Positions 37,477-42,361 of a stretch of DNA of 64,000 bases are shown in pieces. Origin of the DNA: Luteibacter rhizovicinus DSM 16549 (GTDB lineage Bacteria; Pseudomonadota; Gammaproteobacteria; Xanthomonadales; Rhodanobacteraceae). Every line of letters starts with the position of its first letter. The stretch's first letter is position 1. The position numbers were made by a program, and so were the translations under genes. The stretch covers positions 2,942,001 to 3,006,000 of the forward strand of contig NZ_CP017480.1 in the NCBI RefSeq assembly GCF_001887595.1. The letters are read 5' to 3'. The notes under the pieces are model-generated. The model worked only from the letters and a program-made list of their open reading frames with translations, made no database searches and was not told where the DNA came from.

Positions 37477-37500
37477 GCCTCTCAGGTTCCGAGTCAAAAG

Positions 37501-37527
37501 AAACGCCCCGGTCCCCCGGGGCGTTTT
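37501..37527 (+). terminator. Rho-independent terminator of the chemotaxis cluster
   Basis: An 11-bp stem (AAACGCCCCGG with CCGGGGCGTTT), a TCCC loop, then TTTTGCTTTTCT. It lies 24 bp after the last STAS gene. Confidence 0.92.
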
Positions 37528-37941: not shown

Positions 37942-39426
37942 GTGAGCGAACTCAAGTTCAGCAAGGTCTTCACCCGTACTCTTCTGGTCAGCTGCATCCT
38001 GGCTGCGTCGGTCTCCATGACGGCCTGCAGTGGGCACGGTTCGACGCGATCCGGCGGCGGTTCCTCGGGCTCGGTCAATCCGGGCGGTGCAGGCGGCTCC
38101 GGCGATGGCGGTGGCGGTTCGGGCACCGGCGGCGGAGATGGTGGTGGCACGGGAGGCACGGGCGGTGGCACCGGTGGTACCGGTGGCGGTACCGGCGGTA
38201 CGGGCGGTGGTGATGGCGGCGGCACCGGCGGTGGCGGAACGGGCGGCGGGGGCACCGGTGGCGGCGGAACAGGCGGTGGCGGCACAGGTGGTGGTGGCAC
38301 GGGAGGTGGCGGTACCGGCGGTGGCACGGGCACGGCAGCCCCAAGCAACGCCGTCGGCGCGATCGCGACTGGCGCCGGCAACATCGTGTCCTCGCTCGGC
38401 GGAACGATCTCGGGAATCGGCACGCAGCTGCCCTCGGTGACCGCACTGGGCGGCACGGCCGGCCTGACCAATGCGCTCGGCAGCACCGTCAACGACCTCG
38501 GTGGCGCGGTTACGGCGCTCGGTAACGGCGTCTCCGGTGGAATGGGCCAGATCGGCAATACGCCCAACCCGGTGGGTGGCACCACAGCGAGTCTCGACAA
38601 CGTCGTTGTCGGTGCTGGCAATGCGGTACAGGACCTCGGCGCTGGCGTGGATACCGTGGGTGCGAATACACCGATCAGCCCGATCACCGCGACGGTCGCC
38701 GATGTCGTCCAGACGGCCGGCGGTGGCGTGGTGCAACTAGGCACGCAGCTCGGTGGTGCGCTCGGTTCGTCGCAGGCGAACACGGTGACGCAGCTGGTCA
38801 GCGACGTCGTCACGCCCCTGGCTGTTTCGCTCGGCAGCAGTGCATCGCCGGGCTCGTCCGGCAATCTCGTCGCTGCGACGGGTCTGGCCGCAGGCAATAT
38901 GGCGGGTGGCGTGAGCCAGGGAGTGAATGCGCTGGGCACGACCGTTTCCAACAATGCGGCGCCCGGTGCGCTGGGTGGCCTCTCGCAACCTTTGGGTGGC
39001 GCACTGATCGGCACGGCTGACGTCCTCAGCGTGGCGAGCAACACGCTCACGCATGGTCCCGGCACGGCGGGCCCCAGCAGTGCCACGCCGATTCCCACCA
39101 CGCTCAACGGCGTTCCCGCGTTGATCGATAGCGCCGCCGCCCCGATCACCGCGATTGGTACCGGCGGCCTCAGCGGCCTGGCGCCGGTGACCACTCCGGT
39201 CGCCAATGCGCTGAACAGCGTCGGCAACGGGGTATCCAACGTCGTCAACGCGCCCGCGATCGCACCGGTCACGAACACGCTCAACACGGTCGTCAACAAC
39301 GTGGCTTCCGCAACGGGCCTTTCCACGACCACGGGTACGGGTAGCAATAGCGGCCCCGCCGCAGATCCGGTGAGCAGCCTGCTGGGTCGCCTGAAGAACC
39401 TCGGTAAAGGCAATAACGGCTTGTAA
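37942..39426 (+). CDS. Collagen-like glycine-repeat lipoprotein, probable TPS cargo
   Basis: 494 residues from a GTG. A signal peptide ends at MTAC (probable lipidated Cys29, followed by Ser, which favours the outer membrane). Residues about 45-131 are almost only Gly with Thr, Asp and Ser in a GGGT or GGGGT repeat. Residues about 135-470 hold Ala/Gly/Val/Asn-rich degenerate repeats of about 30 residues (motif like N-x-V-x-x-LG-x-x-V), for example LTNALGSTVNDLGGAVTALG. No haemagglutinin-type TPS domain with NPNL/NPNGI motifs is visible. The tpsB-like gene follows after 79 bp with a hairpin between. Probably a surface-exposed adhesive or matrix protein. Without characterised relatives that I can name, function is inferred from context. 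Confidence 0.72.
   Translation: MSELKFSKVFTRTLLVSCILAASVSMTACSGHGSTRSGGGSSGSVNPGGAGGSGDGGGGSGTGGGDGGGTGGTGGGTGGTGGGTGGTGGGDGGGTGGGGTGGGGTGGGGTGGGGTGGGGTGGGGTGGGTGTAAPSNAVGAIATGAGNIVSSLGGTISGIGTQLPSVTALGGTAGLTNALGSTVNDLGGAVTALGNGVSGGMGQIGNTPNPVGGTTASLDNVVVGAGNAVQDLGAGVDTVGANTPISPITATVADVVQTAGGGVVQLGTQLGGALGSSQANTVTQLVSDVVTPLAVSLGSSASPGSSGNLVAATGLAAGNMAGGVSQGVNALGTTVSNNAAPGALGGLSQPLGGALIGTADVLSVASNTLTHGPGTAGPSSATPIPTTLNGVPALIDSAAAPITAIGTGGLSGLAPVTTPVANALNSVGNGVSNVVNAPAIAPVTNTLNTVVNNVASATGLSTTTGTGSNSGPAADPVSSLLGRLKNLGKGNNGL
38095..38330 (+). repeat. Coding repeat of Gly-Gly-Gly-Thr codons
   Basis: About 235 bp of GGN codons with regularly placed ACN (unit like GGCGGTGGCACA). Seven near-identical 15-base units (GGTGGGG) occur in a row near 38220-38330. 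Such tracts slip easily during replication, so length variation between strains is expected. Confidence 0.85.
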
Positions 39427-39435
39427 TGGCGATCG

Positions 39436-39464
39436 GCGCGGGCAGTGTTCGACGCTGCCCGCGC
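39436..39464 (+). promoter_or_regulatory. Stem-loop between cargo and transporter genes
   Basis: A perfect 10-bp inverted repeat, GCGCGGGCAG (39436-39445) and CTGCCCGCGC (39455-39464), with a 9-base loop. Only a weak T tract follows (TTCGTTGT), so it may attenuate rather than end transcription, giving more cargo than transporter mRNA, or protect the upstream mRNA from 3' decay. Confidence 0.7.
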
Positions 39465-39505
39465 TTCGTTGTACATCGCATAAGTCATCGTTCCAGGGGG
39501 TATAG

Positions 39506-41173
39506 ATGAATCGATGGCTCGGCTGCCTGTTAGGCATGTCCGTCGTGTGTTCCACCCAGGCGCAGGTTCGCGCGCCGGCCAATCCACTCCAGACCCTGCC
39601 GCGGACGGAGGCGCCCAAGGAAGCACCTTCGGTCACAGTGAATGTGCAGGCACCTAACCGGGCATTGGAGGCACTTCTCGCCAGTCACCTCACGCCGACA
39701 CGTTTCGATGTGGTCGGGGTGCGTTCGATTCCCTTCGCCGACGTTGCCGCCGTCTTTGCCCCGATGCGCGGCAAGGATACGAGCGTCGGCCAGCTCGTCG
39801 CGGCAGCGGACAGCGTCACGGCGATGTACAAGAAAAAAGGCTACGCGCTGTCGTTCGCCTTCATCCCTGGCCAGACGTTCGCCGATGGGGTCGTGCGTGT
39901 GACCGTCGTCGAAGGTTATGTTTCCGGGCTCACCGTGCGTGGCGATGCGGGCAACCTCGAAGGCCGCATTCGTGCGATGGCGGCGCATATCGTGGACGAG
40001 CGTCCGCTGCGGCAGGACACCTTCGAACGCTATACGCAACTGCTCGGCGAGTTGCCGGGTGCCAAGGTCGCCGCCAACGTGCCGCCGCCGACCACGACGG
40101 ACGGTGCGACCACGCTCGACCTGGACATTACGCGGCAACGCTATGATGCGAGCTACGGCATGGATCTCAACCATCCGGGCGCCCAAGGCGTGTTCACGGC
40201 GCTGGAGAACGGCGCCACACCCCTGGGCGAACAGCTGAGCGTCTCCACGCTGTTTCCGAACGGCGGCGGCCAGCGGCTGTATTCCGTGGCATGGGTCGAG
40301 CCGATCGGTTCGCGGGGCTGGCAAGGCCGCATCGACGGCAGTCACTACTGGGGCAGTCCCGACACCGACGACCAGCTGCCATCGTATCTCGATCATCGTC
40401 TCGCGCAGGAGCGTCTCGCGCTCACGGCCATCTATCCGCTGCTATTGAGCAACACCAAGCGGCTGAACCTGACCGTGGGTTTCTATGGGTCGACGCAGGA
40501 TGATCGCTATCGCAATGTCGACACGGGCGCGATGATCTCGCTGCGATCGAGCGTGCGCGTGCTCAACGCGGAGCTGTCGTGGTTGAAAGCGACCGAGAAA
40601 CGCAGCTCACAGTTCAGCTTTGCTGTCGCTCATGGATTCGATGGTCTTGGCGCGAGTTCGCGCGTGGCAACGAACTTTGGCGGCTCGCTCGCCGTCGCCA
40701 TGCCCGATATCCAGTTCACCCGCTACACCATGAACCTGGCGTGGTCCGAGCAGTGGGCGCACAAGATCGGCACGGTGATTCGCGCCACCGGGCAGTACAG
40801 CAACAATGCCTTGCCATCGACCGAGCAGATCAACTTCGGCGGTCCGAGCTTCGCTTACGCGTACGACCCGGGCGACGCCGCAGGTGACAGCGGCTGGGCC
40901 GCATCGCTCGAAGTGAACCGGGCGTTCGTCTCGGGAACGCGTTGGGTGAAATCGATCGTGCCGTACGTGGCTTACCAGTCGGCCCGCGTCTATCTCAACG
41001 GTGCGCGGCCCTTGATCGACAAGCTCGACTCGGCGGCGATCGGCCTGCGGCTCTCGGACAACAAGCACTACACCGTCGATTTCGCGCTGGCCCAGCCCAC
41101 CGGCGATCAACCGCCGGAGAGCAACAACCGCAACGTGCGGTGGAACCTGACGTTCAGCTACAAGTTGATGTAA
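39506..41173 (+). CDS. ShlB/FhaC/HecB-type two-partner secretion transporter
   Basis: 555 residues with a signal peptide (about 1-19, ending TQAQ). A POTRA_2-type domain sits at about 60-150 (RFDVVGVRSIPFADVAAVF, VVRVTVVEGYVSGLTVRGD). The rest is a 16-strand Omp85-like barrel (ShlB family) ending in FSYKLM, an outer-membrane C-terminal signature. The L6 motif, VRGY or VRGF in the family, is replaced: the INFGGPSFAYAYDPGDAAGDSGW stretch has AYAY where VRGF is expected. It would move the collagen-like protein encoded upstream across the outer membrane. Family assignment is good; the cargo is an inference from adjacency. Confidence 0.85.
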   Translation: MNRWLGCLLGMSVVCSTQAQVRAPANPLQTLPRTEAPKEAPSVTVNVQAPNRALEALLASHLTPTRFDVVGVRSIPFADVAAVFAPMRGKDTSVGQLVAAADSVTAMYKKKGYALSFAFIPGQTFADGVVRVTVVEGYVSGLTVRGDAGNLEGRIRAMAAHIVDERPLRQDTFERYTQLLGELPGAKVAANVPPPTTTDGATTLDLDITRQRYDASYGMDLNHPGAQGVFTALENGATPLGEQLSVSTLFPNGGGQRLYSVAWVEPIGSRGWQGRIDGSHYWGSPDTDDQLPSYLDHRLAQERLALTAIYPLLLSNTKRLNLTVGFYGSTQDDRYRNVDTGAMISLRSSVRVLNAELSWLKATEKRSSQFSFAVAHGFDGLGASSRVATNFGGSLAVAMPDIQFTRYTMNLAWSEQWAHKIGTVIRATGQYSNNALPSTEQINFGGPSFAYAYDPGDAAGDSGWAASLEVNRAFVSGTRWVKSIVPYVAYQSARVYLNGARPLIDKLDSAAIGLRLSDNKHYTVDFALAQPTGDQPPESNNRNVRWNLTFSYKLM

Positions 41174-41224: not shown

Positions 41225-42361
41225 ATGAAACGTCATCCCGCCGCCGAGATCGACATGCCCCTTTCCCTGAGCCCGCCGCCGATTCGCTTCGACGAATCCC
41301 TGGAGCACGTCGAGCCGGATGAGGCCGAGACGGCCGAACAGCTGATCGAGACGCTTACCGGCATCAACCAGACCACCCTCGAACACGAGAAGCACGCGCA
41401 TCGCTCGGTGCATGCCAAGAGCCACGCATTGCTCACGGGGGAATTGATCGTTCCCGACGACCTTCCGCGCGAGCTCGCGCAGGGCATTTTCGCCAGGGCG
41501 GGGCGGTACGGCGTGGCCATGCGTCTGTCGACCGTGCCGGGCGACATCCTCGACGACAGTGTTTCGACACCCCGCGGGATGGCGGTAAAGATCTTCGGCG
41601 TCGATGGCGATCGTCTTCCGGGCAGCGAAGGCGATACGACGCAGGACTTCGTGATGGTGAATGGGCCCGCGTTCTCCGCGCCGACGGCGAAAAAATTCGC
41701 GGGTACGCTGAAGCTGGTCGCGGCGACGACGGATCGTGCGGAAGGTGCGAAGAAAGCGCTGTCCGCGGTCTTGCGTGGCACCGAACGTCTGGTCGAGGCC
41801 TTCGGTGGCAAGAGCGCCACCTTGCTCGCACTTGGCGGCCAGCCGGAGACGAATCCGCTGGGCGACAGCTATTTCAGCCAGGCGCCGCTGCGCTTCGGCG
41901 AGTACGTCGTGAAAGTGTCGATCGCACCTCGCTCACCGAACCTCACGGCGTTGACCGATGCCGAGCTCAACGTCAACGGCAAGCCCAACGGCCTGCGTGA
42001 CGCCATGATCGAGCACTTTGCGCGTGAGGGCGGCGAATGGGATGTGCGCGTGCAGTTCTGCACGGATCTCGAGACCATGCCGATCGAAGACGCGTCGGTG
42101 CCCTGGCCGGAAGAGAAAAGTCCCTACATCGACGTGGCGCGCATCGTCGTGTCGCCGCAGCCGGCGTGGAACGAGGCACGGCGGCTTGCGATCGACGACG
42201 GGCTGGCCTTCAATCCCTGGCACGGCATCGTCGCGCATCGGCCCCTGGGCTCGGTGATGCGCGCGCGCCGGATCGCGTACAAGGTCATGGCGAAGTTTCG
42301 CGCGCACCACAACAAGGTGGCGATCCACGAGCCGAAGATGGTCGACGAGCTTCGGCTCTGA
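41225..42361 (+). CDS. Catalase-family haem protein (small)
   Basis: 378 residues, shorter than true catalases (about 480 or more), like the SrpA/y4iL-type group. Key residues are in place: distal His63 in RSVHAKSHALLTGEL, TPRGMAVKIF, distal Asn146 in DFVMVNGPAF, and a proximal Tyr352 with Arg348 in RARRIAYKVMAKF. It could act on peroxides or as an organic-peroxide-dependent peroxygenase. No signal peptide is seen, so it is probably cytoplasmic. It starts 51 bp after the TpsB-like gene. Confidence 0.82.
   Translation: MKRHPAAEIDMPLSLSPPPIRFDESLEHVEPDEAETAEQLIETLTGINQTTLEHEKHAHRSVHAKSHALLTGELIVPDDLPRELAQGIFARAGRYGVAMRLSTVPGDILDDSVSTPRGMAVKIFGVDGDRLPGSEGDTTQDFVMVNGPAFSAPTAKKFAGTLKLVAATTDRAEGAKKALSAVLRGTERLVEAFGGKSATLLALGGQPETNPLGDSYFSQAPLRFGEYVVKVSIAPRSPNLTALTDAELNVNGKPNGLRDAMIEHFAREGGEWDVRVQFCTDLETMPIEDASVPWPEEKSPYIDVARIVVSPQPAWNEARRLAIDDGLAFNPWHGIVAHRPLGSVMRARRIAYKVMAKFRAHHNKVAIHEPKMVDELRL

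Follow-up and report, generated by a model that had tools for sequence, protein, structure and literature searches.

What does an outer-membrane transporter of the two-partner secretion (TPS) type export when the gene beside it encodes a lipoprotein? The question is raised by a 64,000-nucleotide stretch of Luteibacter rhizovicinus DSM 16549 (contig NZ_CP017480.1, positions 2,942,001 to 3,006,000; the genome is a single contig of 4.77 Mb), here called the window, in which the initial annotation had placed a collagen-like lipoprotein beside a ShlB/FhaC-type transporter. Both open reading frames (ORFs) are indeed present, co-directional and 79 bp apart, with the transporter, TpsB, downstream of the predicted lipoprotein, referred to below as the cargo. 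We regard it as almost certain that the two genes work together, and as probable that the lipoprotein reaches the cell surface by TpsB-dependent export, in a type Vb-like two-partner system with a specialised TpsB.

Conservation of the gene pair

Membership of the TpsB lineage was decided by alignment (A1) at E ≤ 1e-40, a limit of our own choosing. The sample of the host's family comprised 117 genomes, the host included; the cargo family PF15984 was found in 21 and the TpsB lineage in 22, and in all 21 genomes with both the two genes lie side by side, on one contig and the same strand, with the best domain match 175–1034 bp from TpsB (Fisher p = 2.8e-22 for co-occurrence, uncorrected for kinship). 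In the only TpsB-only genome of the family (G015, locus L064) the TpsB is truncated 5′ and no cargo is recognisable. Genera g4, g17 and g19 each include members with both genes and a listed member with neither; the pair therefore comes and goes together. The class sample (321 genomes) gave PF15984 above the cut-off in two genomes, the host and G276, both paired; below the cut-off, G255 had no TpsB match at 1e-10 and G158 a weak one on a different contig. Among 250 Burkholderiales genomes, including the centre G437, selected for carrying the TpsB, PF15984 was above the cut-off in seven and TpsB was found in 11, and all seven have both. The order is reversed, TpsB first, in two of these seven (G659 and G689), and in G573 a further ORF separates cargo from TpsB. 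Two genomes that PF15984 would class as TpsB-only (G477, G524) have an adjacent lipoprotein-like ORF matching the cargo profile (E 6e-9 to 8e-9), and in another (G643) a lipoprotein-like ORF bearing a true collagen repeat (PF01391) lies at a distance of one ORF. G510 holds a sub-cut-off PF15984 match and no TpsB match.

A second set of loci was named from the best 80 of 188 TpsB relatives, the closest of which, among the matches listed, belong to Luteibacter. At 77 of the 80 a Gly-rich, Arg-poor ORF lies directly upstream of TpsB, and all 77 match PF15984; as for the exceptions, L074 and L135 begin at a contig edge and L109 keeps a cargo remnant only. Five matches are plasmid records, and in the three fetched (two Cupriavidus, one Caballeronia) the cargo is again upstream. 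Chance adjacency is thus rejected by the genome samples and by the 77 loci with the same kind of neighbour. The conserved adjacency that the initial annotation had proposed to look for was found in the family and Burkholderiales samples, at the 80 loci and in one class-sample pair.

Some copies are damaged or odd. TpsB is broken into two ORFs at L152, one of the plasmid loci, and L065 (G058) has a PF15984 cargo of 1217 residues, over twice the usual length. A small secreted-looking protein of 245–278 residues stands between cargo and TpsB at L167 (4862–5599) and L168 (4672–5508); it has no Pfam match and no lipobox in its printed part, and the L168 copy matches the cargo profile.

The features of the window locus are collected in Table 1. 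A hairpin search found no terminator-like structure between the two genes, and a promoter search gave a single weak site, on the opposite strand (1 found vs 0.5 expected). NCBIfam gave no above-cut-off match for either protein. The next ORF after the pair, a catalase-family protein (41225–42361), is also found 3′ of the pair in 10 of 13 Luteibacter loci; it was excluded from the two-gene unit because the printed ORFs of the Dyella and Burkholderia loci do not include it. A few hundred bases 3′ of TpsB many Burkholderiales loci carry a DUF2147 gene (PF09917, E 1.5e-33 in the one member tested, L097:7898–8383), which is missing from the printed ORFs of the Xanthomonadales loci. At two Burkholderiales loci, L168 and L172 (G573, G459), the pair is followed by genes that we take to be Tad/Flp-pilus-like. 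Perhaps these and the cargo/TpsB pair form one adhesion island.

Table 1. Positions of the gene pair and of its features in the window
Feature	Position	Strand	Remarks
Terminator-like hairpin, 3′ of upstream STAS gene	37500..37527	+	
Cargo gene, predicted lipoprotein, PF15984 (Collagen_mid)	37942..39426	+	494 aa, GTG start
Signal peptide with lipobox MTAC, predicted lipidated Cys29, Ser at +2	37942..38028	+	sequence pattern
Gly/Thr low-complexity tether, residues 48-130	38083..38331	+	62 Gly and 15 Thr of 83; low pLDDT
Collagen_mid copy 1	38458..38835	+	E 6.5e-25; long helices predicted
Collagen_mid-like copy 2	38962..39393	+	E 5.1e-4, under family cut-off here
C-terminal Leu-rich, Lys/Arg-bearing segment, candidate export signal	39367..39423	+	predicted helix 476-489
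Transporter gene, TpsB/ShlB-type Omp85 protein	39506..41173	+	555 aa
POTRA_2 domain, residues 63-137	39692..39916	+	
L6 tip motif FGGPSFAYAYDPG in place of (V/I)RG(Y/F)	40835..40873	+	Arg place = Tyr451
Gln491 at lid-lock Asp place (D492 of FhaC)	40976..40978	+	

The cargo and its transporter

The cargo scores 88.1 bits against PF15984, for which the Pfam cut-off is 31.1, and two PF15984 matches occur in 20 of the 21 family genomes. By sequence pattern it is a predicted outer-membrane lipoprotein, with a lipobox Cys and Ser rather than Asp at +2; a lipobox is present in 74 of 77 cargo relatives, and the other three ORFs start less than 200 bp from a contig edge. A TPS domain (PF05860) was found neither in the window cargo at E ≤ 1 nor in any of the 78 cargos at E ≤ 0.001, and the same model did recover four TPS-domain genes from the host. 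The window cargo has no NPN string, and an NPNG string in the cargo consensus, absent from the window cargo, is in our reading a coincidence. A hidden TPS domain was rejected on the Pfam result and the missing NPN string, in agreement with the initial annotation, which had seen neither the domain nor its NPNL/NPNGI motifs.

The AlphaFold model of the cargo is all-alpha, with ten helices of 21–33 residues and a short last one; its confidence (pLDDT, the predicted local distance difference test, as ten-residue means) is 72–89 over residues 131–270 and 311–450 and 53–68 between them. These predicted helices match the Ala/Gly/Val-rich repeats of 30 residues described earlier, and the beta-helix for which a structure prediction had been suggested does not appear in the model. 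The Gly-Gly-Gly-Thr tract of the initial annotation is present, though its units are a mixture of GGT, GGGT and GGGGT. It holds no Pro, and Gly takes 21 of 28, 22 of 28 and 19 of 27 places in the three phases, hence not every third place in any of them; no PF01391 match was found in the window cargo at E ≤ 1. The tract was accordingly rejected as collagen, and the term collagen-like suits the name of the Pfam family, as well as the tethers at L167 and L168, but not the tract of the window.

Composition was calculated for 72 of the 78 cargos, those in which a stricter lipobox pattern (Gly or Ser after Cys) could be placed. Charged residues make up a median of 2.5% (0.9–5.7%), aromatic residues number at most three per cargo and 70 of the 72 have no second Cys; the eight other window ORFs taken as genes, the transporter included, have 16–29% charged residues. 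The few basic residues gather at the C-terminus, with Lys/Arg at 115 of 720 places in the last ten residues vs 228 of 31,879 elsewhere, a 22-fold difference, and at least one in the last ten of every one of the 72 cargos. The Leu fraction of the last 20 residues is doubled (0.205 vs 0.100) and is raised in every one of the 78 cargos; in 69 of them an L-[LIVFT]-[GS] motif falls within the last 24 residues, where 200 shuffles gave a mean of 20.6 (maximum 33). Lys/Arg in the last ten residues was likewise found in all 43 further cargos that lie upstream of the adjacent one and in all 12 fetched unpaired PF15984 proteins, both sets being counted from the protein's first Cys and not from the lipobox Cys.

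The transporter matches POTRA_2 (E 4.5e-17) and ShlB (E 5.5e-10) and no other Pfam family at E ≤ 1; in its model we read a probable second POTRA-like region after POTRA_2, and FhaC and CdiB are among the nearest solved folds. In FhaC a conserved salt bridge joins R450 of (V/I)RG(Y/F) to D492 of (F/G)xDxG (PMC4490367; this and the other papers cited here were available in part). Neither of these lid-lock motifs is found in the window transporter, which has AYAY and Gln491 instead. The lid-lock Arg is retained at one of the 80 clade loci, in four of 14 more distant rows and in 24 of 30 control TpsBs (of 32 control loci tried, those with a TpsB ORF found). The distant rows include L063 (G136), which the tree places with a neighbouring group of TPS-cargo transporters and whose TpsB sits at a contig end, with no cargo in view. 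In 28 of the 80 clade loci, and in none of the 30 controls, the Asp has given way to Gln; 28 is also the count of Xanthomonadales loci among the 80, and the A1 rows agree. Loss of the Arg is neither unique nor universal; a claim limited to the joint loss of Arg and Asp is narrower. In the tree the TpsBs of the PF15984-paired loci form one branch; in the adjoining group the three TpsBs tested neighbour a TPS-domain gene, and each of the host's other four TpsBs has a TPS-domain gene within 10 kb.

Proposed export and its rivals

PF15984 lipoproteins are already published in Burkholderia. Those of the B. cepacia complex were described as a new class of adhesins, the Bcc collagen-like proteins (Bcc-CLPs) BCAL1523, BCAL1524, BCAL2397, BCAM0695 and BCAM1598, with bcal1520/1522/1523/1524 as a possible operon and BCAL1522 as a "heme utilization-related" neighbour (PMC10224339). 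The part of that text available has no mention of FhaC, POTRA or a transporter. The coordinates that it gives (1686 bp with a 144-bp gap and 1425 bp with a 40-bp gap) fit L096 and L105, respectively, and therefore BCAL1522, going by gene length and spacing alone, would be a TpsB of this lineage. BCAL1524 was reported in vesicles; it also promotes auto-aggregation and plays a part in the infection of insects (PMC10303873). BCAL1520, 1523 and 1524 are induced upon host-membrane contact together with the neighbouring flp pilus genes (PMC7970998), which adjoin the pair in B. cenocepacia (PMC10224339, PMC7970998). A link between PF15984 lipoproteins and TpsB was not found in the open-licence literature, the scope of our search, which leaves subscription papers outside: no paper among the matches listed ties the two together.

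We infer transport, with its direction, signal and function, along the following lines. The cargo would cross the inner membrane by Sec, be lipidated at Cys29 and, having Ser at +2, be routed by Lol to the outer membrane. There the POTRA domains may take hold of it, with the conserved, Leu-rich segment at its C-terminus as a possible contact, and the almost uncharged, Cys-poor chain of the cargo would thread the barrel. Outside the cell the Gly/Ala/Val repeats would form a long-helix domain, which the lipid and the flexible Gly/Thr tether could hold on the cell, with a possible role in adhesion or aggregation. It can soundly be reasoned that the transporter must read a signal other than a TPS domain and must handle a lipidated cargo. 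That the signal is C-terminal and that the cargo leaves tail-first is a tentative proposal. Perhaps this TpsB branch switched cargo, dropping the TPS domain along with the beta-helix, losing its lid lock, and exporting a lipoprotein tail-first by a C-terminal tag, an account that we find rather doubtful. The N-terminal lipid might then stay in the membrane, with the Gly/Thr tether running through or beside the pore, which is a part of the same speculative picture and shares its standing. If the tail-first reading is true, TPS export would be separable both from its recognised signal and from the energy source presumed to drive it.

Several observations weigh against export by this TpsB, or against parts of it. 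In G618 the TpsB has a cargo-profile match 2.4 kb off and on the opposite strand. Burkholderia genomes also carry PF15984 genes far from TpsB; a single TpsB must then serve more than one cargo, or some cargos need none. The lid-lock Arg is also absent from six of the 30 control TpsBs, so that its loss is not specific, and together with the four distant rows that retain the Arg this weakens lid-lock loss as a mark of lipoprotein cargo. The location of BCAL1524 in vesicles is no proof of surface exposure. Finally, five of seven distant cargos (L062, L165, L166, L167 and L168) lack Lys/Arg over their final ten residues, and for this reason we offer the C-terminal signal as a hypothesis, not as a result.

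The pair could also be an outer-membrane complex without export, in which the lipoprotein is periplasmic or serves as a plug or gate in the barrel, like RcsF, which sits inside the barrel of BamA, and TpsB has another job. An Omp85-lipoprotein complex of this kind has been solved (6t1w, BamA with RcsF), and with the lid lock absent another closure may be needed. We nevertheless judge such a complex improbable, as a relative of the cargo is reported to occur in vesicles and to promote auto-aggregation, and no third partner is apparent, the largest printed downstream ORFs differing among Luteibacter, Dyella and Lysobacter (the downstream side only was compared).

Some TpsBs can serve unlinked cargo, and unpaired PF15984 genes exist; this TpsB might then export an unlinked TPS-domain protein while the lipoprotein takes another route, adjacency meaning shared regulation only. 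Each of the host's four TPS-domain genes, however, has another TpsB within 10 kb, and none of the 117 family genomes has PF15984 without the lineage TpsB, which makes this supposition very unlikely. Omp85 kin include insertases, and the transporter might instead be one of these, or an Omp85 protein that handles lipid, flipping or anchoring the acyl chains of the lipoprotein and threading no polypeptide. In favour of such a role, the lipid anchor of Slam substrates is believed to require flipping from one side of the membrane to the other (PMC9090332); yet the POTRA of the transporter is ShlB-type and its place in the tree is among translocases, beside TpsBs of which the three tested neighbour a TPS-domain gene, and we give the insertase equally little credence. 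The reading that we prefer is surface export of the lipoprotein by way of TpsB.

Comparison with known systems

With the collagen-like proteins (PF01391) the cargo shares its family name, and the tethers at L167 and L168 are PF01391 tethers; the tract of the window differs in having no Gly at every third place and no Pro. The Bcc-CLPs are closer, being PF15984 lipoproteins with low-complexity regions, two of them (BCAL1523/1524) beside BCAL1522. They differ in that PF15984 matches are single and strong in Burkholderiales, whereas in Xanthomonadales they are mostly two and weaker. Slam1/TbpB likewise pairs an outer-membrane translocon with a surface lipoprotein, and the Slam authors liken Slam export to two-partner secretion (PMC9090332, in the part available). 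Slam, however, belongs to PF04575, which was not matched at E ≤ 1 in the window transporter, and TbpB and HpuA contain beta-barrel domains, unlike the predicted helical cargo. A PF04575 search for a Slam-type exporter gave no match in the host, nor in any control genome, and so carries little weight.

The nearest system is type Vb secretion (FhaB/FhaC, HxuA/HxuB, CdiA/CdiB). As in type Vb, the genes are linked and the transporter combines ShlB-type POTRA domains with a predicted Omp85 barrel of the TpsB kind. Unlike type Vb, the cargo is a predicted lipoprotein without PF05860, its predicted fold being all-alpha and not a beta-helical passenger, and the transporter has neither the Arg of (V/I)RG(Y/F) nor the Asp of (F/G)xDxG. 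By its presumed working the pair is a variant of two-partner secretion, but not a classical TpsA/TpsB system, which the TPS domain defines. TPS export has been accounted for by the binding of an N-terminal TPS domain to POTRA and, probably, by folding of a beta-helix outside the cell (PMC5422565, in the part available). The constant partner of this TpsB lineage seems to have neither, which makes the lineage a natural test of both ideas.
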